A stretch of DNA of 34,242 nucleotides from Acidimicrobiia bacterium (GTDB lineage Bacteria > Actinomycetota > Acidimicrobiia > Spongiisociales > UBA5794), in assembly GCA_027036355.1 (NCBI GenBank), contig JALVQZ010000163.1, positions 1 to 34,242 of the forward strand. Reading direction: 5' to 3'. The notes beneath the pieces are model-generated. The model saw nothing but the letters and a program-made list of their open reading frames with translations, did no database searches and was not told the origin of the DNA. How positions within the stretch are numbered: the first letter of the stretch is position 1; each line of letters opens with the position of its first letter. This document shows positions 9,971 to 19,010 of this stretch, one piece after another. The position numbers and the translations under genes were made by a program.

Positions 9971-11305
9971 GTGACGCCTCGACCCGACGCATCGGCTTCT
10001 CCGCTCCGCCGCAGCCTCGTCGCCTCGTCGCGGTGGGTCGTTCGGTCGTTCTCCGGGATGTTCGACGTGTGGGGCACGGCCTATCGGCGGCTCGCCGAGT
10101 CGCACGCGGCGTCGGTCGTCGGCGACGGTCTCTTCGCGGTCGCCCTCGCCGGCACGTTGTTCTTCGCGGTGCCTTCGACCGACGCCCGCCAGAACGTCGC
10201 GTTGTACCTGCTGTTGACCTTGGCGCCGTTCGCCGTCGTTGGGCCGCTCCTTGGTCGTCTGTTCGAGCGTGCCCCCGCCGCGTACCGCGCCGGTCTGGCC
10301 GTCAGTGGGGTGGGTCGCGCCCTGATCGCGGTGGCGACCCTGTTCCTCGTCGACTCGCTCGTCCTGTTCCCGCTGGCGTTCACGTTGCTCGTCCTTTCGC
10401 GGTTCGCCGGCATCAGCCGTTCGAGCGTGCTTCCGGTGGTGGTCGGTGACCCGGCCGCGTTGGTCCATGCGAACGCTCGCCTGGCGAGGATCGGGGTCCT
10501 GTCGGCGGCGGTGACGCTGCCGTTCGGAGCGCTTCTGGTGGGTCTCGTCGGTCCTGCCGGTGGTCTGCTCCCCGCGGCGGTCGCCTATCTGGCCTCCGCG
10601 GTGGGAGCCGCCCAGCTGCCGCGGGTGTCGGTGCCGCGTCTCGAACGACGCGACGCGGTGCGACGGAGCTCACGGATCCCGCGCCGGGTCCGGCTGGCCC
10701 TGTTCGCGACCGCGGGGGTCAGGTTCCTCAACGGCTTCCTCGTGCTGTTGGTGGCGTTCGCGTTCCGTGACGTCGATGCCGGGGTGCTGTCGCTCGGTGC
10801 CATCCTCGGGGCCGCCGGGGTCGGCTTCTTCCTCGCCGCCTGGTCGGCGCCGCTGCTCGGCGGGTTCGTACCGGAGGAGCCGATGGTCGTGGCGGCGCTC
10901 GCCGTGGAGGCGGGCGCGGCGTTCATCGCCGGGCAGGTGTTCGACCTGTCGGCGGCGACCGTGCTCGTCGCGGCGATGGTGCTCGCCGGCGCGGCGGGGT
11001 TCGCCTGGGGGACGGCCAAGTTCGGCTTCGACGGCCTCCTCCAGTCCACCGTCCACCCCTCCGGCCGCGGGCGGGCGTTCACCCTGGCCGAGACCGTCTT
11101 CCAGATGGCGTGGGTGGTCGGGGCGCTCATCCCCGTGCTGCCGATCCTGCCGACAGGATTCGGGCTCGCCTCCGCCGGCGTGCTGGCCCTCGTCATCCAG
11201 GTCGTCTACGTGACGCTGGTGCTGCTCCCCGAGGCGAACCGCTGGCAGGGGCACCGTTCCCATCGCGCCGAAGATCCCGGCCAGGGCGTGCTGGACCTCC
11301 TCTGA
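9971..11305 (+). CDS. Major facilitator superfamily membrane protein
   Basis: A 444-residue polytopic protein with about 12 hydrophobic segments and a basic cytoplasmic loop near the middle (about residues 225-240, RRDAVRRSSRIPRRVR), as in MFS transporters. The GTG start is preceded by CGGAGG. The protein begins with a basic N-terminus before the first helix. It lies 9 nt after phoH and is probably co-transcribed. Overall layout resembles the uncharacterised MFS efflux-type proteins of actinobacteria, with a segment GTAKFGFDGLLQSTVHPSGRGRAF near the C-terminal half. No motif that would reveal a substrate is seen. Transport is likely; direction and cargo are unknown. Confidence 0.8.
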   Translation: MTPRPDASASPLRRSLVASSRWVVRSFSGMFDVWGTAYRRLAESHAASVVGDGLFAVALAGTLFFAVPSTDARQNVALYLLLTLAPFAVVGPLLGRLFERAPAAYRAGLAVSGVGRALIAVATLFLVDSLVLFPLAFTLLVLSRFAGISRSSVLPVVVGDPAALVHANARLARIGVLSAAVTLPFGALLVGLVGPAGGLLPAAVAYLASAVGAAQLPRVSVPRLERRDAVRRSSRIPRRVRLALFATAGVRFLNGFLVLLVAFAFRDVDAGVLSLGAILGAAGVGFFLAAWSAPLLGGFVPEEPMVVAALAVEAGAAFIAGQVFDLSAATVLVAAMVLAGAAGFAWGTAKFGFDGLLQSTVHPSGRGRAFTLAETVFQMAWVVGALIPVLPILPTGFGLASAGVLALVIQVVYVTLVLLPEANRWQGHRSHRAEDPGQGVLDLL

Positions 11306-11316
11306 CCCCCGATCCC

Positions 11317-11525
11317 CGAACCCAGGGTTGTGGGCGCCCTGTGGGGGCTTGGCGAACCCTGGGTTGTGGGCGCCCTCTGAGGGCTTGGCCAGCCCAGAGT
11401 TCGGTCGGGTCTGGCGAACCCTGGGTTGTGGGCGCCCTCTGAGGGCTTGGCCAGCCCACGGTTCGGCGGGGTCTGGCGAACCCTGGGTTGTGGGAGCCCT
11501 GTGGGGGCTTGGCGAACCCTGGGTT
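11317..11525. repeat. Intergenic cluster of 36-nt palindromic direct repeats
   Basis: Four near-identical 36-nt copies begin at 11317, 11353, 11415 and 11477, with a truncated fifth at 11513; start-to-start distances are 36, 62, 62, 36. Each begins CGAACCC(A/T)GGGTT and contains GCCCT-ctg-AGGGC or the variant GCCCTGTGGGGGC. Copies 2 and 3 are followed by 26-nt spacers carrying a degenerate inverse of the repeat start, so 11353-11403 and 11415-11465 can each fold into a 51-nt hairpin with a 14-position outer stem (one mismatch, one wobble). The cluster lies between the convergent MFS and hflX genes, where terminators are expected. Both flanking frames through it are low-complexity and not credible proteins. 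Confidence 0.85.
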
Positions 11526-11543
11526 GGCGGTTGGGGGGGGTGG

Positions 11544-12863
11544 TCAGTGGTCGTCGGCGATGAAGGTGTCCAACCGGGCTGCCATCGACTCGGGGACCCG
11601 AACGAGGACACGGGTGCCTTCCTCCTCGTGGGTCTGAGCCACGACGGTGCCGCCGTCGTGGACCAGACCGAGGACGTCGCCACGATCGTACGGGACGAGC
11701 AGCGCCAGCTCCACCGTCCTGGCCTCGAGCGCCCGCCGGATCGCGCCGCCCAGCGCCCCGATGCCCGAGCCGTCGATCGCCGAGACGAACGCGGCCTCTG
11801 GGTGGAGCCTGCGGAGCCTCCGCACCGTCACCTCGTCGGTCGCGTCGATCTTGTTGAACACCAGCAGCTCGTCGTTGCCCCCCGCCCCGATCTCCTCGAG
11901 GACCCGATGGACCGCGGCGATCTGCAGCTCCGGCTCCGGATCCGACGCGTCGACGACGTGGAGGAGGAGATCGGCTTCGGCGACCTCCTCCAACGTCGAA
12001 TGGAAGCTCTGGACCAGCTCGTGGGGCAGATTGCGAACGAACCCGACCGTGTCGGAGATCAGCGCCGAATGGCCATCGGGGAGCTCGAGCTTGCGCACCG
12101 TCGAGTCCAACGTCGCGAAGAGGCGGTCCTCCACGAGCACGTCGGCGCCGGTGAGCCGGTTGAACAACGTGGACTTACCGGCGTTCGTGTACCCGACGAT
12201 CGCCACCGTCGGGTCACCCGAGCGACGGCGGGAACGGCTCCGCGTCGAGCGCGACCGGGCCGCGTCCTTCAGCTCCCGCTCGATCTTGCTCATCCGCTCG
12301 AGGATCCTTCGTCGGTCCGTCTCGAGCTTCGTCTCGCCAGGGCCGCGGGTGCCGATCCCCGCGCCCAACCGGCTCATCTCGGTCCCCCTCCCGCGCAGCC
12401 GCGGGAGCCGGTACCGATGCTGGGCCAGCTCCACCTGCAGCATGCCCTCCTTCGTGTGGGCGTGCTGTGCGAAGATGTCGAGGATCAGGGCGACGCGGTC
12501 GACGACGTCGCACTCGAAGGCCTTCTGCAGGTTGCGTTGCTGGGCCGGGCTCAGCTCGTTGTCGAACACCACCACATCGATGTCGAGCGCCTTCGACTCG
12601 GCGACCAGCTCCCTGAGCTTCCCCGAACCGATGTAGGTCGCGGGGTCCGGCCGTTCCCGTCGGACCAGCTCCGAGGCCACCGGCTCGGACCCGGCGGTGT
12701 CGGTCAGCGCCTCGAGCTCGGCGAGCCCGAGTTCTCCATCGGTGGCTCGCTTGTCGACGACCGCCACCAGCATCGCTCGCTGCCGCGTGACGTCGAGGTC
12801 CGTGACCGAAGCGGTGAGACGGCGTCCCCGGCGCCCGACGTGTTCGTTCGATCGTTCCGTCAT
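11544..12863 (-). CDS. hflX: GTPase HflX
   Basis: A 439-residue ribosome-associated GTPase that splits stalled 70S ribosomes in stress. The N-terminal HflX domain contains the IGSGK motif (after PATY), the VVFDNELSPAQQRNL segment, and the basic linker RLRGRGTEMSRLGAGIGTRGPGE. The G domain follows a basic coiled region: G1 GYTNAGKST, G2/G3 through LFATLD and DTVGFV, then the HflX-typical NLPHELVQSFHSTLEE, and G4 FNKID. The C-terminal domain is about 75 residues. Start at ATG 12863 is supported by a TACGGT -10 box 7 nt upstream, giving a leaderless mRNA. Its 3' end faces the palindromic repeat cluster; it is divergent from the importer operon. Confidence 0.95.
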   Translation of the reverse strand: MTERSNEHVGRRGRRLTASVTDLDVTRQRAMLVAVVDKRATDGELGLAELEALTDTAGSEPVASELVRRERPDPATYIGSGKLRELVAESKALDIDVVVFDNELSPAQQRNLQKAFECDVVDRVALILDIFAQHAHTKEGMLQVELAQHRYRLPRLRGRGTEMSRLGAGIGTRGPGETKLETDRRRILERMSKIERELKDAARSRSTRSRSRRRSGDPTVAIVGYTNAGKSTLFNRLTGADVLVEDRLFATLDSTVRKLELPDGHSALISDTVGFVRNLPHELVQSFHSTLEEVAEADLLLHVVDASDPEPELQIAAVHRVLEEIGAGGNDELLVFNKIDATDEVTVRRLRRLHPEAAFVSAIDGSGIGALGGAIRRALEARTVELALLVPYDRGDVLGLVHDGGTVVAQTHEEEGTRVLVRVPESMAARLDTFIADDH

Positions 12864-13015: not shown

Positions 13016-14395
13016 ATGAACGACAACCTTCGTCGGTGGCTCCCGTGGATCGGGGTCGCCGTGGTCGCGTTGATCGTCATCATCGTCATCGCCGCCAACT
13101 CTGGCGGCGGGGACGAAGTGGCGGGATCGACCACGACGACGACCGAGGCACCGGGAACGACGACCACGACCGAGCCGGGTGAGACCACGACCACGACCGC
13201 GGCACCGGAGAAGCCCGAACCGGGCCCCCTCGGCGCCGTCGAGGTCGCGCCGGGTGAGGACATCCAGATCCGGTCCCTCGAGGCCATCTCCGGCGACGTG
13301 GCGTTCCTCGGCATCCCGAACGACCGGGCGACCGAGATCGCCATCGAGGACTTCGGTCCCATCGCCGGCCACTCGGTGACCCGGGGCACACCCCTCGACG
13401 ACCTGTGCTCGTCCGAAGGCGGTCAGGCCGCCGCCCAGCAGATCGTGTCCGACAACTCCGTGGTCGGCGTCATCGGCACCTCGTGTTCCGGCGCCGCCGT
13501 GGCCGCCTCGCCGCTCATCAGCGACGCAGGCATGGTCATGATCTCCCCGTCGAACACGTCGCCGGCGCTCACGTCCGACCTCAAGGGCAACCCGGGCACG
13601 GACTATCACCCGGGCTACTACCGGACCGCCCACAACGACCTGTTCCAGGGCAAGGCCGTCGCATTGTTCGTGTTCAACGAGCTCGGCCTCACCAAGGCCG
13701 CCGCGATCCACGACGGCGACCCCTACACCAACGGTCTCGCGACGGCGTTCAAGGACGCCTTCGAGGAGCTCGGCGGTGAGGTCGTCGCCTTCACGGCCGT
13801 CAACAAGGGCGACACCGACATGACGCCGGTGCTGACCGAGGTGGCTGCGGCAGGCCCCGAGGTGATCTTCTTCCCGATCTTCATGCCCGAGGGCGGGTTC
13901 ATCGTCCAGCAGGTGCGTGGCGTGTCGGGTCTCGAGGAGGTCACGCTCATCGCCGCCGACGGTCTGCTGACCGACAACTTCATGGAGCTCCCCGAGTCGG
14001 AGGGTGTCTACTTCTCCGGCCCGAACCTCCAGTTCGGCTCCAACACGTCGGCCACCGGCGTGTCCGCAGACGACTTCCTCAAGAAGTACCAGGACAAGTA
14101 CGGTGAGGCGCCGTCCGCGGCCTTCTGGGCGCACAGCTACGACGCCACGGTGCTTCTGCTGACGGCCATCAAGGACGTCGGCGTCGAGCTCCCCGACGGC
14201 ACGCTGTTCATCGACCGGCAGGCCCTGCGCGACCGGCTCACCGCGACCAAGGACTTCCCGGGCATCACCGGGACCCTGTCGTGCGACGAGTTCGGCGACT
14301 GCGGGTCGCAGCGCATCTCGATCGTCTTGCACACCGACTCGAAGGACATCGAGGCGGGCAAGCAGAACGTCGTCTTCGAGTTCGCACCGAACTAG
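13016..14395 (+). CDS. LIV-type ABC transporter substrate-binding protein
   Basis: A 459-residue extracytoplasmic receptor of the branched-chain amino acid/amide binding family (Peripla_BP_6). Instead of a lipobox it has an uncleaved-looking transmembrane anchor at residues about 8-28, followed by a Thr-rich tether (runs of TTTTT separated by acidic/Pro residues, about 38-63), then the binding domain. Family-like segments include DLCSSEGGQAAAQQIVSDNSVVGVIG and SCSGAAVAASPLISDAGM, the latter lining the ligand pocket in relatives. GGAGG 9 nt upstream supports ATG 13016. Ligand class is probably an amino acid or amide/amine; the oxidase at the operon end favours an N-methylated or other amine substrate, but this is inference. 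A strong terminator follows, so it is probably made in excess over the permeases. Confidence 0.88.
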   Translation: MNDNLRRWLPWIGVAVVALIVIIVIAANSGGGDEVAGSTTTTTEAPGTTTTTEPGETTTTTAAPEKPEPGPLGAVEVAPGEDIQIRSLEAISGDVAFLGIPNDRATEIAIEDFGPIAGHSVTRGTPLDDLCSSEGGQAAAQQIVSDNSVVGVIGTSCSGAAVAASPLISDAGMVMISPSNTSPALTSDLKGNPGTDYHPGYYRTAHNDLFQGKAVALFVFNELGLTKAAAIHDGDPYTNGLATAFKDAFEELGGEVVAFTAVNKGDTDMTPVLTEVAAAGPEVIFFPIFMPEGGFIVQQVRGVSGLEEVTLIAADGLLTDNFMELPESEGVYFSGPNLQFGSNTSATGVSADDFLKKYQDKYGEAPSAAFWAHSYDATVLLLTAIKDVGVELPDGTLFIDRQALRDRLTATKDFPGITGTLSCDEFGDCGSQRISIVLHTDSKDIEAGKQNVVFEFAPN

Positions 14396-14412
14396 AGCGA
14401 ACCGTTCGCGAC

Positions 14413-14447
14413 ACGAAGGGGGCCGGCCGAGCGCCGGCCCCCTTCGT
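14413..14447 (+). terminator. Intercistronic terminator after the binding-protein gene
   Basis: A perfect 15-bp stem (14413-14427 with 14433-14447) around a 5-nt loop, arms rich in G/C with an AAG/CTT base, followed by a modestly T-rich tail TTGTGCTTG. It sits between the receptor gene and the first permease gene, as often seen where the receptor is needed in excess. Confidence 0.85.
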
Positions 14448-14468
14448 TGTGCTTGAATCGTTGGCCAC

Positions 14469-15710
14469 ATGACGACGACGGCCGAGCGTGCGGACTTCCG
14501 ATTCAACTGGGTGGACTCGTTCCTCCTGGCCCTGCGGATCGCGGCCATCTTCGTCGTCGTGTGGGGAACCGTCGGAGCGCTCGCCCTCGGCTTCGTCGGG
14601 GAGGGCCTGAGCGGCTCGGCCTGGAAGGACCTCATCGTCGCCGGACTCGCCCAAGGGTCGATGTACGGGCTCATCGCCCTCGGGTACTCCATGGTCTACG
14701 GCGTCCTCGGCTTCATCAACTTCGCCCACGGCGAGGTCTTCATGGCGGGCGCCATGGTCGGCTTCTTCGTCGCCGACTACTTCTTCACCTCCGGCCTGTG
14801 GGTCTCGAACTTCATCATCGCCATCCTCATCGTGCTCGTCGTGGCGGTCGCCACGTCGACGTTCACGGCGGTCCTCATCGAGAAGGTTGCCTACCGGCCG
14901 CTCCGCAACTCGCCACGGCTGATCCCGCTCATCACCTCGATCGGGGTGTCGTTCTTCCTCCAGAACGCCGTTCTCGGGCTCGTCGGTCCCGCCGTCAAGA
15001 CCTACCCGCAGGCCCCCACGTGGCTCTCGCAGAAGATCTCCGTCCTCGGGCTCCAGATCGAGGGAACCAAGCTCCTGGTCATCGTCATCGCGGTCGTGTC
15101 GATGATCGGGCTCTGGCTGTTCGTCGAACGCACCAAGACGGGCAGGGCGATGCGGGCCGTCGCCGAGGACAAGGAGATCGCCGCCCTCATGGGCATCGAC
15201 GTCGACCGCACCATCGTGACGACCTTCGCCGTCGGCGGCGCCATGGCCGGCGTCGCCGGCATCCTCTGGGCCCTGTTGTTCCGCGGCGTGTCGTTCATCA
15301 CCGGTTTCCTCCCCGGGATCAAGGCCTTCACCGCGGCGGTGCTCGGAGGGATCGGCAACCTGGTGGGCGCCATGGCCGGCGGTGTGCTCCTCGGCTTGTT
15401 CGAATCCCTCGGACCGAACGTCGTGCTCCGCGGCCTCCGCTGGGAGATCCCCTTCGGACTCGGGATCGCCGCGCTCGCCGCCGGTATCGCCGTCGCCGTG
15501 CTCGCCTGGCGGCGAGGACGTGTCTCGGTCGCCTCGCTCGCCGGCGCCTTGATCATGCTGGGCGTGGCCGGGATCGGTCAGTGGTCGATCGTCATCCCCG
15601 GCCTCACCCAGCTCAAGGACGTCGTCGCCTTCTCCGCCCTCGTCCTCGTCCTCATCTTCAAGCCCTCCGGATTGTTCGGTGAGCAGCTCGCCGACGAGGA
15701 TCGCGCATGA
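14469..15710 (+). CDS. LIV-type ABC permease (LivH-like), enlarged
   Basis: A 413-residue inner-membrane permease, about 100 residues longer than typical LivH (about 300). A hydrophilic start and one extra helix (about 20-42) precede the LivH core, which begins around residue 50 with VAGLAQGSMYGLIALGYSMVYGV and FINFAHGEVFM. The EAA-like cytoplasmic loop is at RTKTGRAMRAVAEDKEIAALMGIDVDR. Near the C-terminus, an additional pair of hydrophobic segments (about 335-372) is inserted before the final helix ending IFKPSGLFGEQ. It lies after the terminator, with no Shine-Dalgarno close to the ATG. It overlaps the next permease gene by ATGA. Confidence 0.9.
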   Translation: MTTTAERADFRFNWVDSFLLALRIAAIFVVVWGTVGALALGFVGEGLSGSAWKDLIVAGLAQGSMYGLIALGYSMVYGVLGFINFAHGEVFMAGAMVGFFVADYFFTSGLWVSNFIIAILIVLVVAVATSTFTAVLIEKVAYRPLRNSPRLIPLITSIGVSFFLQNAVLGLVGPAVKTYPQAPTWLSQKISVLGLQIEGTKLLVIVIAVVSMIGLWLFVERTKTGRAMRAVAEDKEIAALMGIDVDRTIVTTFAVGGAMAGVAGILWALLFRGVSFITGFLPGIKAFTAAVLGGIGNLVGAMAGGVLLGLFESLGPNVVLRGLRWEIPFGLGIAALAAGIAVAVLAWRRGRVSVASLAGALIMLGVAGIGQWSIVIPGLTQLKDVVAFSALVLVLIFKPSGLFGEQLADEDRA

Positions 15711-17503
15711 ACCAGACCGTCACCCGTCGCTCGGCCACCGACCTGGACTGGGACCGGGTCCGCCGCTGGGGCATCTACGCCGGCTTGACGATGGCGTTCC
15801 TCTCGTCGATCGGGATGGTCGAGAACCTCGACAAGCGGATCATCGTCGATCCGATCCTCAGCCTCGGGTTCCTGGCGCTGCTGTGGGTGCCGGTCGCCTT
15901 CGGCTACGCCGCCACCTACGAAGAGGCCAAGGAGGGCATGGCCGCTCCCGAGAAGGGCGAACGGGACCTCGTCGGCGGCCTCGTGACCGGCCTGATCGGC
16001 GGCCTGTTCTTCGTCGCCTTCATCGCCATCGCCGACGCCGTCGATCTGCGCGGGGTCTTCCCCCGGATCGGTCCCGCCCTCATCGACCTCCTCACGTTCG
16101 ATCGTGGCGTCGCCATCGGCAGCCTGCTGTGGCTGGTCATCTCCGGGCTCCTCGGCATGTTCGGGGGTCTCCTCCACGTGCTGCCGGACCGGGTCCGCCG
16201 AGCCGTCACCAACGCGCTCGCCGCGGTGTTCCTCGTCGCGCTCGTCGAGATCGCCGTCGTCGACATCTTCGAATCGTTGCGCCTGACGGTCATCAGCGAC
16301 TGGATCTACGCCAAGAACGGTGGGGTCACCATCGCCGGGGCGGTCGTCATCGCCGCCCTCGCGGCCCTCTCGTCGGTGCGCTCGGAGGGAGACGCCGTGG
16401 TTCGGTTCCGGACCCGATACGCAACGATGGAAGGCGACGAGAGGAAGCGGTTCAACCTCATCGCCGGAGCCGTTGCCGTGGTGCTCGCCGTCGTGCTCCC
16501 CATGATCCTCGGAGGGCTCACCAACGAACTGCTCGCCAACGTCGGGCTCTTCCTGTTGATGGCGCTCGGCCTCAACCTCGTCGTCGGGTACGCCGGGCTC
16601 CTCGACCTCGGCTACGTCGCGTTCTTCGCCGTCGGTGCCTACACGACGGCGATCCTCACGTCGCCGTTGTCGCCGAAGTGGACGCCCATGCTGACGCTCG
16701 ACTTCTTCTCGATCGAAGGTTGGGTCGTGATGGTCGTCGTCGTCGCCGTCGCCGCCCTGTCGGGACTCGTCGTCGGAACGCCCGTCATCCGGCTGCGGGG
16801 CGACTATCTGGCCATCGTCACGCTCGGCTTCGGTGAGATCGTGCGCATCCTGTTCCTCTCCGACTGGCTCGCTCCGGCCTTCGGAGGAGCCCAGGGGATC
16901 CGCAACATCCCGGCCGCCGTCGCCGGGCCCGTCGAGATCAACGGTACGAAACCGCAGACGATCTTCTACGTCGTCGTCGTCTTCGTCGGCATCGCCATCT
17001 ACGTCGCCTGGCGTCTCTACCACTCCCGGATCGGTCGCGCCTGGGCCGCCCTTCGCGAGGACGAGGACGTCGCCGAGGCCATGGGTGTCGAGACCACCAA
17101 GATGAAACTGCTGGCGTTCATCACCGGGGCCATCCTGGCGTCGTTCGGCGGGATGATCTTCGCGGTGAAGGTCGGTTCGGTGTTCCCGTCGAGCTTCAAA
17201 CTGATCGTGTCGATCATCGTGCTGGTCATCGTCATCGTCGGCGGCATGGGCTCCATCCCCGGCGTCGTCGTCGGGTCGTTGGTGCTGATCGGGATCCTCG
17301 GAGGTCCCACCCAGCCCGGGCTCCTCGCCGAGTTCGGCGAGTTCAAGCTCCTCATCTACGGGGCCCTGCTCGTGTTCATGATGCTGCGCCGGCCGGAGGG
17401 GCTGTGGCCCAGCGTGCAGCGACAACGGGAGCTCCATCAAGAGGAGATCCTGCAGGATGCCTGGCTGAAGGCCGAAGCCGCCGACGAGGAGGGGAAGCGC
17501 TGA
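15707..17503 (+). CDS. LIV-type ABC permease (LivM-like) with a large N-terminal membrane extension
   Basis: A 598-residue permease. The LivM core occupies about residues 248-580: GLFLLMALGLNLVVGYAGLLDLGYVAFFAVGAY, then RLRGDYLAIVTLGFGEI, and the EAA-like loop SRIGRAWAALREDEDVAEAMGVETTKMK, ending MMLRRPEGLWP. The first 245 residues are not part of usual LivM proteins (300-420 residues); they contain about six hydrophobic segments (near 22-40, 50-68, 92-112, 135-158, 166-185, 207-224) with charged loops. I do not recognise this extension. The start overlaps livH-like by ATGA, and the stop overlaps the ATPase start by one base. It pairs with the preceding permease to form the transmembrane channel. 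Confidence 0.9.
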   Translation: MNQTVTRRSATDLDWDRVRRWGIYAGLTMAFLSSIGMVENLDKRIIVDPILSLGFLALLWVPVAFGYAATYEEAKEGMAAPEKGERDLVGGLVTGLIGGLFFVAFIAIADAVDLRGVFPRIGPALIDLLTFDRGVAIGSLLWLVISGLLGMFGGLLHVLPDRVRRAVTNALAAVFLVALVEIAVVDIFESLRLTVISDWIYAKNGGVTIAGAVVIAALAALSSVRSEGDAVVRFRTRYATMEGDERKRFNLIAGAVAVVLAVVLPMILGGLTNELLANVGLFLLMALGLNLVVGYAGLLDLGYVAFFAVGAYTTAILTSPLSPKWTPMLTLDFFSIEGWVVMVVVVAVAALSGLVVGTPVIRLRGDYLAIVTLGFGEIVRILFLSDWLAPAFGGAQGIRNIPAAVAGPVEINGTKPQTIFYVVVVFVGIAIYVAWRLYHSRIGRAWAALREDEDVAEAMGVETTKMKLLAFITGAILASFGGMIFAVKVGSVFPSSFKLIVSIIVLVIVIVGGMGSIPGVVVGSLVLIGILGGPTQPGLLAEFGEFKLLIYGALLVFMMLRRPEGLWPSVQRQRELHQEEILQDAWLKAEAADEEGKR

Positions 17504-18288
17504 TGCATCTCCTCGAGATCACCGGTCTCACGAAGTCCTTCGGAGGACTGCAGGCGCTCGGTGGCGTCGACTTCCACATCGACGAGCTCGAGATCGTCTC
17601 GGTCATCGGGCCGAACGGAGCGGGGAAGACCACGTTCTTCAACACCATCTCGGGGCTCGTCGTCCCCGACGAGGGACGGATCGTCTTCGAGGACGAGGAC
17701 ATCGCCGGCCTCGAACCCAGCGAGATCACCAGGCGCGGCATCGCCCGGACCTTCCAGAACGTGCGGCTGTTCCCCGACATGACGATCCTCGAGAACGTGA
17801 TGGTCGCCCAGCATTGCCGCACCGAGACCGGTGTCTGGGGGGCCCTGTTCAACACGCCGACGTTCCGCAACGAGGAGCGAGCCATCGAGGAGCGGGCCAA
17901 GGACATCTTGGGGTTCTTCGGGACCCGCCTCACCGGCTACCGGTTCCGCCAACCCGCCTACGTGCTGTCGTACGCGAACCGGCGGCGGCTCGAGATCGCC
18001 CGGGCGATGGGCACGATGCCGCGCCTCCTGCTGCTCGACGAACCCACCGCAGGCATGAACCCGAAGGAGACCGCCGAGCTGACGGGCCTCATCCGCAAGC
18101 TGCGCGACGAGAAGGGCTTCACGATCGTCGTCATCGAACACGAGATGCGGGTCGTGCGTGACGTATCGGACCGGGTGGTCGTCCTCGACCACGGCGTCAA
18201 GATCGCCGAGGGCAGCTACGACGACGTGTCGTCGAACCCCGATGTGATCGAAGCGTACCTCGGCCGGCCCGCGGAGGAGGGCGCATGA
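17503..18288 (+). CDS. LIV-type ABC transporter ATPase (LivG-like)
   Basis: A 261-residue ABC ATPase. Walker A GPNGAGKT is at residues 36-43, the Q-loop at RTFQNVRLFPDMTILENV, and Walker B LLLLDEPTAGMNPKE with the switch His in VIEHEM. The signature reads LSYANRRRLEIARAM, where LivG proteins usually have LSYGQQRRLE; the Gly of the signature is replaced by Ala. The insertion after the Q-loop (GVWGALFNTPTFRNEERAI) is typical of LivG. ATG 17503 shares a base with the preceding stop (TGATG). Together with the next ATPase it energises uptake through the two permeases. Confidence 0.93.
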   Translation: MHLLEITGLTKSFGGLQALGGVDFHIDELEIVSVIGPNGAGKTTFFNTISGLVVPDEGRIVFEDEDIAGLEPSEITRRGIARTFQNVRLFPDMTILENVMVAQHCRTETGVWGALFNTPTFRNEERAIEERAKDILGFFGTRLTGYRFRQPAYVLSYANRRRLEIARAMGTMPRLLLLDEPTAGMNPKETAELTGLIRKLRDEKGFTIVVIEHEMRVVRDVSDRVVVLDHGVKIAEGSYDDVSSNPDVIEAYLGRPAEEGA

Positions 18289-19010
18289 ACGACCGCGTCC
18301 CGGTCCTCGAGTTCCGCCACGTCCACACCCACTACGGGCCGGTGCACATCCTCAAGGACGTGTCCATGCAGATCTACCCGGGGGAGCTGGTCTGTCTCCT
18401 CGGTGGCAACGCCTCGGGCAAGACCACGACCCTCAAGACCATCCTCGGCATGGTCGTCCCGTCCAGCGGCGACGTCCTCGTCGACGGTGAGGTCATGACC
18501 GGGCGGCCGACCGCCGACGTCGTGATGAGGGGCATCTCGATGGTCCCCGAGAACCGGCGCCTGTTCAAGCGGATGACCGTCAAGGAGAACCTCGAGATCG
18601 GCGCCTACCTGCGGGACGACGACGAGATCGACCAGGACATGGAGAAGGTGTTCGAGATGTTCCCGCGGGTCAAGGAGCGGCTCGGTCAGAAGGCCGGGAC
18701 CCTCTCCGGCGGCGAGCAGCAGATGGTCGCGGTCGGTCGGGCCCTCATGTCGCGGCCCAAGCTCCTCCTGATGGACGAGCCCTCGATGGGTCTGGCACCG
18801 ATCCTCGTCCAGCAGAACTTCGACATCATCGAACAGATCAACGACGCCGGGATGACCGTCTTCATGGTCGAGCAGAACGCCAACATGGCACTGTCGATCG
18901 CCGACCGCGGCTACGTTCTCCAGACGGGTCAGATCGTGCTCGAGGACACCGCGGAGAACCTCCTCGCCAACGAGGACCTCCGCCGCGCCTACCTCGGGCA
19001 GGCCGACTGA
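18285..19010 (+). CDS. LIV-type ABC transporter ATPase (LivF-like)
   Basis: A 241-residue ABC ATPase. Walker A reads GGNASGKT (residues 40-47), a change from the usual GxNGAGKT that still retains the GKT core. The signature LSGGEQQMVAVGRALM and Walker B LLLMDEPSMGLAPI are canonical LivF, with MVEQN providing the switch region. Its ATG overlaps the LivG-like stop (ATGA). The gene ends 4 nt before the FAD oxidoreductase start, which places that enzyme in the same transcript. Confidence 0.94.
   Translation: MNDRVPVLEFRHVHTHYGPVHILKDVSMQIYPGELVCLLGGNASGKTTTLKTILGMVVPSSGDVLVDGEVMTGRPTADVVMRGISMVPENRRLFKRMTVKENLEIGAYLRDDDEIDQDMEKVFEMFPRVKERLGQKAGTLSGGEQQMVAVGRALMSRPKLLLMDEPSMGLAPILVQQNFDIIEQINDAGMTVFMVEQNANMALSIADRGYVLQTGQIVLEDTAENLLANEDLRRAYLGQAD

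Follow-up and report, generated by a model that had tools for sequence, protein, structure and literature searches.

The cluster of short palindromic repeats that lies between two convergent genes of this Acidimicrobiia contig is interpreted here as derived from an element that encodes a nuclease, in a non-autonomous form that has no gene and is expanded in tandem, a reading to which a probability of roughly 0.6 is assigned. The parts from which the cluster is built, a head, a hairpin and an inner motif, equal the ends of the units that carry the nuclease genes and follow one another in the same order there, and this likeness points to a new type of bacterial repeat able to spread itself.

The palindromic array and its family in the source genome

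Five heads of the form CGAACCC[A/T]GGGTT start at positions 11317, 11353, 11415, 11477 and 11513 of the window (the whole stretch of DNA analysed, 34,242 nucleotides), at the spacings of 36, 62, 62 and 36 nt that the initial annotation had given for four copies and a partial one. The inverse head copies that it had reported within the 62-nt units are likewise present, each unit containing one inverted, diverged head at the inner-motif position listed in Table 1. Head matches with up to three mismatches number five in the window against 0.02 expected from shuffles, and the fold of the array region beats 200 out of 200 shuffles both as RNA (z −4.7) and as DNA (z −5.5), which bears out its description as a hairpin-forming cluster. 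The flanking convergent ORFs end at 11305 (+) and 11544 (−); the ORF on the minus strand encodes an HflX-type GTPase according to a Pfam search, and the one on the plus strand has no Pfam match. Adjoining hflX, a plus-strand run of ORFs at 13016–19010 of the window resembles, from its translations only, a branched-chain amino acid transport operon.

Table 1. Features of the repeat array and their coordinates in the window
Feature	Position	Strand	Basis or remark
Intergenic region holding the array	11306..11543	no strand	between stop codons of convergent ORFs
Head 1, AACCCAGGGTT, palindrome	11319..11329	no strand	sequence
Head 2, AACCCTGGGTT	11355..11365	no strand	sequence
Head 3, AACCCTGGGTT	11417..11427	no strand	sequence
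Head 4, AACCCTGGGTT	11479..11489	no strand	sequence
Head 5, AACCCTGGGTT	11515..11525	no strand	sequence; surrounding 18-mer partial
Complete unit, 47 nt (head, 25-nt inner hairpin, head)	11319..11365		structure class from cross-genome unit comparison
Complete unit, 47 nt (head, 25-nt inner hairpin, head)	11479..11525		sequence
Inner motif ('hinge'), GCCAGCCCAGAGTTCG on +, CGAACTCTGGGCTGGC on −	11388..11403	−	motif class equals inner boundary of nuclease gene ends
Inner motif ('hinge'), GCCAGCCCACGGTTCG on +	11450..11465	−	

The annotation was also right that no further copy lies in the window, yet the genome-wide search that it had proposed revealed a dispersed family: the 18-mer has 146 sites with up to three mismatches in the source genome (reversed-pattern control, 2), 137 of which fall in 31 stretches. 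The 11-bp palindromic head AACCCWGGGTT occurs there in at least 33 intergenic arrays, and 33 arrays were examined. Their usual layout comprises one to four left 36-nt units, the inner motif, a spacer, at least one right unit and the end CGAACCCTGGGTTCG. The inner motif, GCC[AG]GCCCA(CG/GA)GTT, lies 35 nt past the last left head in most arrays and was found in its strict form in 24 of the 33, five of which carry it in both orientations. Between otherwise alike units, the inner mini-hairpin of the 36-nt unit is flipped in L064 and L083 relative to L058 and L060.

Several other identities were considered for these repeats. A CRISPR-like array (36-nt units with inserts) was ruled out, as the units follow one another in tandem and the inserts turned out to be heads in inverted orientation, and so were coding repeats, as spacings of 61 or 62 nt are not divisible by three and none of the 115 arrays located in all lies within a called gene. 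A resemblance to the LexA box was rejected on the spacer, which is unlike that of the box. A search of Rfam gave nothing above threshold and three weak matches at chance level. In both G000 and G001 several contigs stop within an array, so that unit numbers there are uncertain and possibly wrong; this would be in keeping with a collapse or expansion of tandem repeats in assembly, which is nonetheless extremely improbable for the window array, since it is internal to its contig, has unique sequence on its flanks and corresponds to an array at this site in a second species.

Spread among relatives and position relative to genes

Paired heads (AACCCWGGGTT-N23-28-AACCCWGGGTT) were found in 27 of 138 genomes of the order versus none of 257 other genomes of the class, and the reversed control of this pattern gave no match in any genome searched; the pattern restricted to the order is defined by heads paired about 36 bp apart. 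A covariance model of the 47-nt unit, with at most about 45 candidates scored per genome, gave matches in 50 of 137 genomes, spanning 26 of the 60 genera. The exact 18-mer returned four matches among named genomes, all of them single or degenerate heads, and none among viral contigs. At L148, L149 and L253 (G040, G053), heads also stand 12 bp apart (head, one base, head), both in arrays and at gene ends of that genus.

Across genera the head and a spacing of 35–37 nt are kept, and the inner ~25 nt stay self-complementary although their sequence differs between genera. When one unit per genome was taken from 27 genomes, the inner arms formed 5.5 of 10 Watson-Crick pairs, versus 3.6 with the arms swapped, and the arm-swap control never exceeded 4.6 pairs in 500 trials. 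Cells changed on both sides, counted over 40 units from 19 genomes, numbered 93 versus 53 in the shuffled control (0/500), and slid controls gave 19–46.

A total of 115 arrays were located in 27 genomes, 16 of them at locus edges and 99 with both neighbours called by a custom gene caller, from which neighbour orientation was taken. These 99 occupy 56 codirectional, 29 convergent and 14 divergent gaps. Within the codirectional gaps the array is nearer to the upstream stop in 41 of 56 cases, at a median of 12.5 bp past that stop and 47.5 bp before the next start (n = 56). Arrays are held by 29 of 63 convergent versus 14 of 74 divergent gaps (p = 0.0008), counts that represent no random genome sample because the loci were fetched as array-bearing. 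The clusters that the annotation had proposed to look for at other gene 3′ ends are present, arrays being enriched there and between convergent genes. Such placement, the strong fold and the retention of the same sites in two species would all be expected if the palindromes were host elements, acting as bidirectional terminators or 3′-end stabilizers, beside which the nuclease gene inserts as a hitchhiker in the manner of REP-targeting insertion sequences. This explanation appears unlikely: the arrays between divergent genes (14 of the 99) speak against it, as does the lack of a U-tract, a search for intrinsic terminators (a hairpin followed by a U-tract) having returned no site in 11200–11650.

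Comparison with G001, the genome of a sister species in the same genus, revealed that 26 of the 33 arrays of the source genome lie at orthologous sites also occupied there (39 G001 arrays compared, arrays cut by contig ends being counted per piece). Both flanks were matched at 14 of the shared sites, with flank identities of about 78–95%; the window array is among those shared, its G001 counterpart being flanked by the same genes. The units, however, are 36-nt GCCC..GGGC in the source genome and mostly 37-nt ACCCC..GGGG in G001, and have only heads and register in common. Contigs of G001 break inside the arrays that match the window array and L065 (L126 + L223 and L228 + L230), so those arrays are probably longer there. 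The other seven arrays of the source genome have no match among the 39 of G001; two of their sites were looked up in G001 and proved free of an array. Neither a clean empty site nor a target duplication was seen at these two sites, where the intergenic DNA does not align and thus no clean insertion junction can be read.

The nuclease gene family and the ends of its units

Among 380 array-adjoining genes, one family recurs in four genomes and is the immediate neighbour of the array in five of five cases; by genome count it ties for first place with a family of ABC-type proteins, some of which are not directly next to the array. The recurring family combines an AbiEi_4 winged helix with a C-terminal MTES_1575/DUF559 nuclease domain. 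The AbiEi_4 match is above cut-off in two full-length copies, and PADLOC AbiEi models also match the family; in the C-terminal domain the MTES_1575 match lies below the Pfam cut-off and the DUF559 match partly above it. The pattern D..E-x-D..WH is readable in 27 of the 29 proteins of the clade described below (17 of 29 by regular expression alone). A weak PDB profile match (E 0.18) was obtained to 3r3p_A, a mobile intron protein, which we take to be I-Bth0305I. A plasmid search for the nuclease gave one match of 32%, a DUF559 protein, and the open-licence literature yielded no account of repeats that flank DUF559, MTES_1575 or AbiEi genes, nor of repeats of this kind in Acidimicrobiia.

A profile of the five array-adjoining members matched in 29 of 35 chosen genomes. 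An AACCCWGGGTT-like head lies within 220 bp of the gene, often on both sides, at all 27 loci scoring at least 292 bits, versus none of seven at 223–290 bits and one of 37 below 175 bits, a ranking that is not independent of the question because the profile was built from array-adjoining genes. Covariance model matches agreed with this, being found at 18 of the 33 high-scoring loci and at none of the 37 low-scoring ones. In a protein tree of 70 members (one short protein of the 71 was left out), the head-bearing genes form a clade of 29 with support of 100/98, made up of the 27 high scorers, a G025 gene with an AACCCSGGGTT head and a G115 fragment that is a low scorer with a head. The strict head criterion singled out 28 of the 29 clade members and none of the 41 proteins outside, at which no AACCCW head was found; a fairer test of the head association is given by the clade genes minus the five query genes. 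By genome, 20 of 23 array-positive genomes carry a clade gene, versus one of 12 array-negative ones (Fisher p = 9e-6, with relatedness ignored and the genomes not independent). Two genomes have arrays without a clade gene (G066 and G106, assemblies 86 and 73% complete), and a third has arrays and only a sister-clade gene (G120, 75% complete). Within one genus, G026 has gene and array, and G010 and G035 have neither. The scarcity of arrays where the gene is missing argues against palindromes of host origin, and so do the variant heads that sister-clade genes bear as their own and the clade gene of G034, which has heads on its flanks in a genome where no array was found.

The 5′ head stands about 90–120 bp before the nuclease gene and the 3′ head mostly about 40–60 bp past its stop. 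The head is followed, towards the gene, by a ~25-nt hairpin and then the inner motif CAGCCCACRGTTC, an arrangement mirrored on the far side. The 5′ and 3′ flanks are inverted repeats of each other at 22 of 26 genes of the clade, at all six sister genes and at 24 of the 31 other paralogs, versus 2 of 76 control genes, and the inner motif is found on both sides of 14 of 26 clade genes versus 0 of 76 controls (8 of 71 genes were dropped from both comparisons for a flank shorter than 120 nt on the 5′ or 100 nt on the 3′ side). At 25 of 46 gene ends the best match among 31 genomes, taking the best of several heads per end, was to the dispersed units of the gene's own genome; at the other 21 the own genome was not the best match. 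The source genome has such a gene at L240:1098-2033; all three parts (head, hairpin, inner motif) are present on the 5′ side of this gene, and the inner motif and hairpin, with no 3′ head found, on its 3′ side.

AbiEi reportedly controls its own expression through palindromic inverted repeats to which it binds in its promoter (PMC3985639). The upstream position of the heads and the PADLOC matches would accordingly suit operators of an AbiEi-like repressor, the arrays serving a defence or toxin-antitoxin gene as additional operators or as decoys, without any mobility. An operator would not need the inverted heads past the stop, however, which are also too near it for an AbiEii partner within the unit, and dozens of arrays lie at the 3′ ends of other genes, all of which makes this explanation quite improbable.

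Proposed mechanism and relation to known systems

In the preferred reading, that of a nuclease-encoding element with gene-less derivatives, a complete element would consist of the head AACCCWGGGTT, a ~25-nt hairpin, CAGCCCACRGTTC, the nuclease gene and then the inverted inner motif, hairpin and head. Its gene would encode a fusion protein in which an AbiEi-like winged helix is joined to a Vsr-like (MTES_1575/DUF559) nuclease; DUF559 is described as common in Vsr-like enzymes (PMC12907096). For this element, whose cleavage and mobility we infer, the N-terminal AbiEi-like part would bind the palindromic head, the Vsr-like nuclease would cut at or near it, and repair from another copy, by homing-like gene conversion or transposition, would spread, expand and homogenize the units. 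Such a mechanism would explain the strict heads, the free but self-complementary spacers, the tandem growth and the kept sites with replaced sequence. The hairpins would persist mostly just past stop codons, where harm is least and use as a terminator is possible; a terminator role for the host would be compatible with the model.

A broader proposal, advanced tentatively and at slightly less than even odds, is a class of mobile repeats whose palindromic heads would be recognized by an AbiEi-like/Vsr-like nuclease instead of a transposase, and whose hairpin units this nuclease would copy through cutting and repair. Every clade of the nuclease would then have a cognate repeat of its own (AACCCWGGGTT in one clade, AACCT and AACCCS forms in its sister, other repeats around distant paralogs). 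If this is true, the 'antitoxin/DUF559' genes of the order would be selfish repeat-maintaining elements, and a family whose annotation is limited to antitoxin or DUF559 would gain a function. The partner of known REP-like repeats is a tyrosine transposase; a family of like form that is combined with an unrelated nuclease would demonstrate more than one origin of such a lifestyle. The family would also offer repeats whose genomic positions persist as their sequence is copied over, a case open to testing.

The initial annotation had likened the cluster to REP/BIME elements. The dispersed palindromic family, the tandem amplification and the enrichment at gene 3′ ends uphold that likeness, but the REP-associated tyrosine transposase it had suggested looking for is not among the findings: PF01797, the RAYT-type (Y1) transposase, had no match in 40 genomes, 20 of them array-bearing, and control genomes were positive. 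GTAG and CGTC are described as tags of REPs (PMC3733652); neither is conserved at a unit end across 40 units from 19 genomes, where only the heads are invariant and the absence of an invariant column elsewhere means that there is no conserved GTAG tag. Because they lack this enzyme and this tag, the present high-copy extragenic palindromic repeats are not classed as REP/RAYT, and a classical REP/BIME mobilized by a RAYT transposase, which their palindromic, extragenic, clustered and dispersed nature would otherwise suit, is very improbable. It is probable that the repeats work like REP/RAYT with an unrelated enzyme. RAYT genes are reported to be always flanked by two inverted REPs (PMC2817692), and the same REPtron-type arrangement, an enzyme gene between two inverted repeat copies, is present here with an enzyme that differs from RAYT. 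The clustering of short extragenic palindromes, the compensatory changes and the resemblance of dispersed copies to the gene's own ends are also shared with REPtrons as described (PMC2817692, PMC3733652). Unlike REPtrons, the present family has an AbiEi-like winged helix and a Vsr-like nuclease instead of a Y1/HUH transposase, a fully palindromic 11-mer as its end and 36/37-nt tandem units, and it is confined, in the genomes searched, to one order of one class. REPINs, described as hairpin-forming REP doublets (PMC3116915), likewise join two inverted ends and a spacer into one hairpin that is the dispersed unit and occurs in tandem clusters, but here core and enzyme are different and tandem units share heads.

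A Vsr-like nuclease domain combined with DNA-binding parts, predicted here by profile only, is also the make-up reported for Vsr-like (EDxHD) homing endonucleases such as I-Bth0305I, which dimerises on a long target (PMC3943268). In contrast to enzymes of that type, the present gene is free-standing and intergenic within inverted repeats, with no intron or intein, and its site is outside conserved genes. The N-terminal winged helix and the upstream palindromic repeats recall the AbiEi antitoxin of type IV AbiE systems as reported (PMC3985639). Unlike AbiEi, the present protein has an added nuclease domain and its repeats lie on both sides of the gene and genome-wide; unlike AbiE, the unit holds no AbiEii partner between its heads, the 3′ head being mostly too close to the stop for a second gene inside. 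MITEs are gene-less elements made of a coding element's inverted ends, and the arrays resemble them in that their head, hairpin and inner motif also make up the inverted ends of the nuclease element. They differ from MITEs in the tandem expansion of these ends and in an enzyme outside the known transposase families; no target duplication was seen at the two array-free sites of G001.

Repeats also flank more distant members of the nuclease family. An exact 12-mer common to the left and right flank was found for 24 of 32 distant paralogs versus 5 of 76 other genes (8 of 71 genes with less than 100 nt of flank on either side were dropped). Where nuclease genes fall beyond the main clade or at its margin (L258, L273, L274, L276, L277), variant palindromes stand on both sides of them, namely AACCCSGGGTT in G025 and G037, AACCTWAGGTT in G115 and G116, and AACCTSAGGTT in G124. 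Among distant paralogs, the flanking word CGTTCTTGCG is common to six loci (L260, L262, L266, L279, L282, L291) and CACACTCGAC to four (L261, L293, L299, L305); these words are shared across several genomes and unrelated to the heads. From inspection of the flanks by eye, nuclease units seem to stand behind the same neighbour gene in L248 (G124) and L250 (G037), and in L256 (G115) and L271 (G116).
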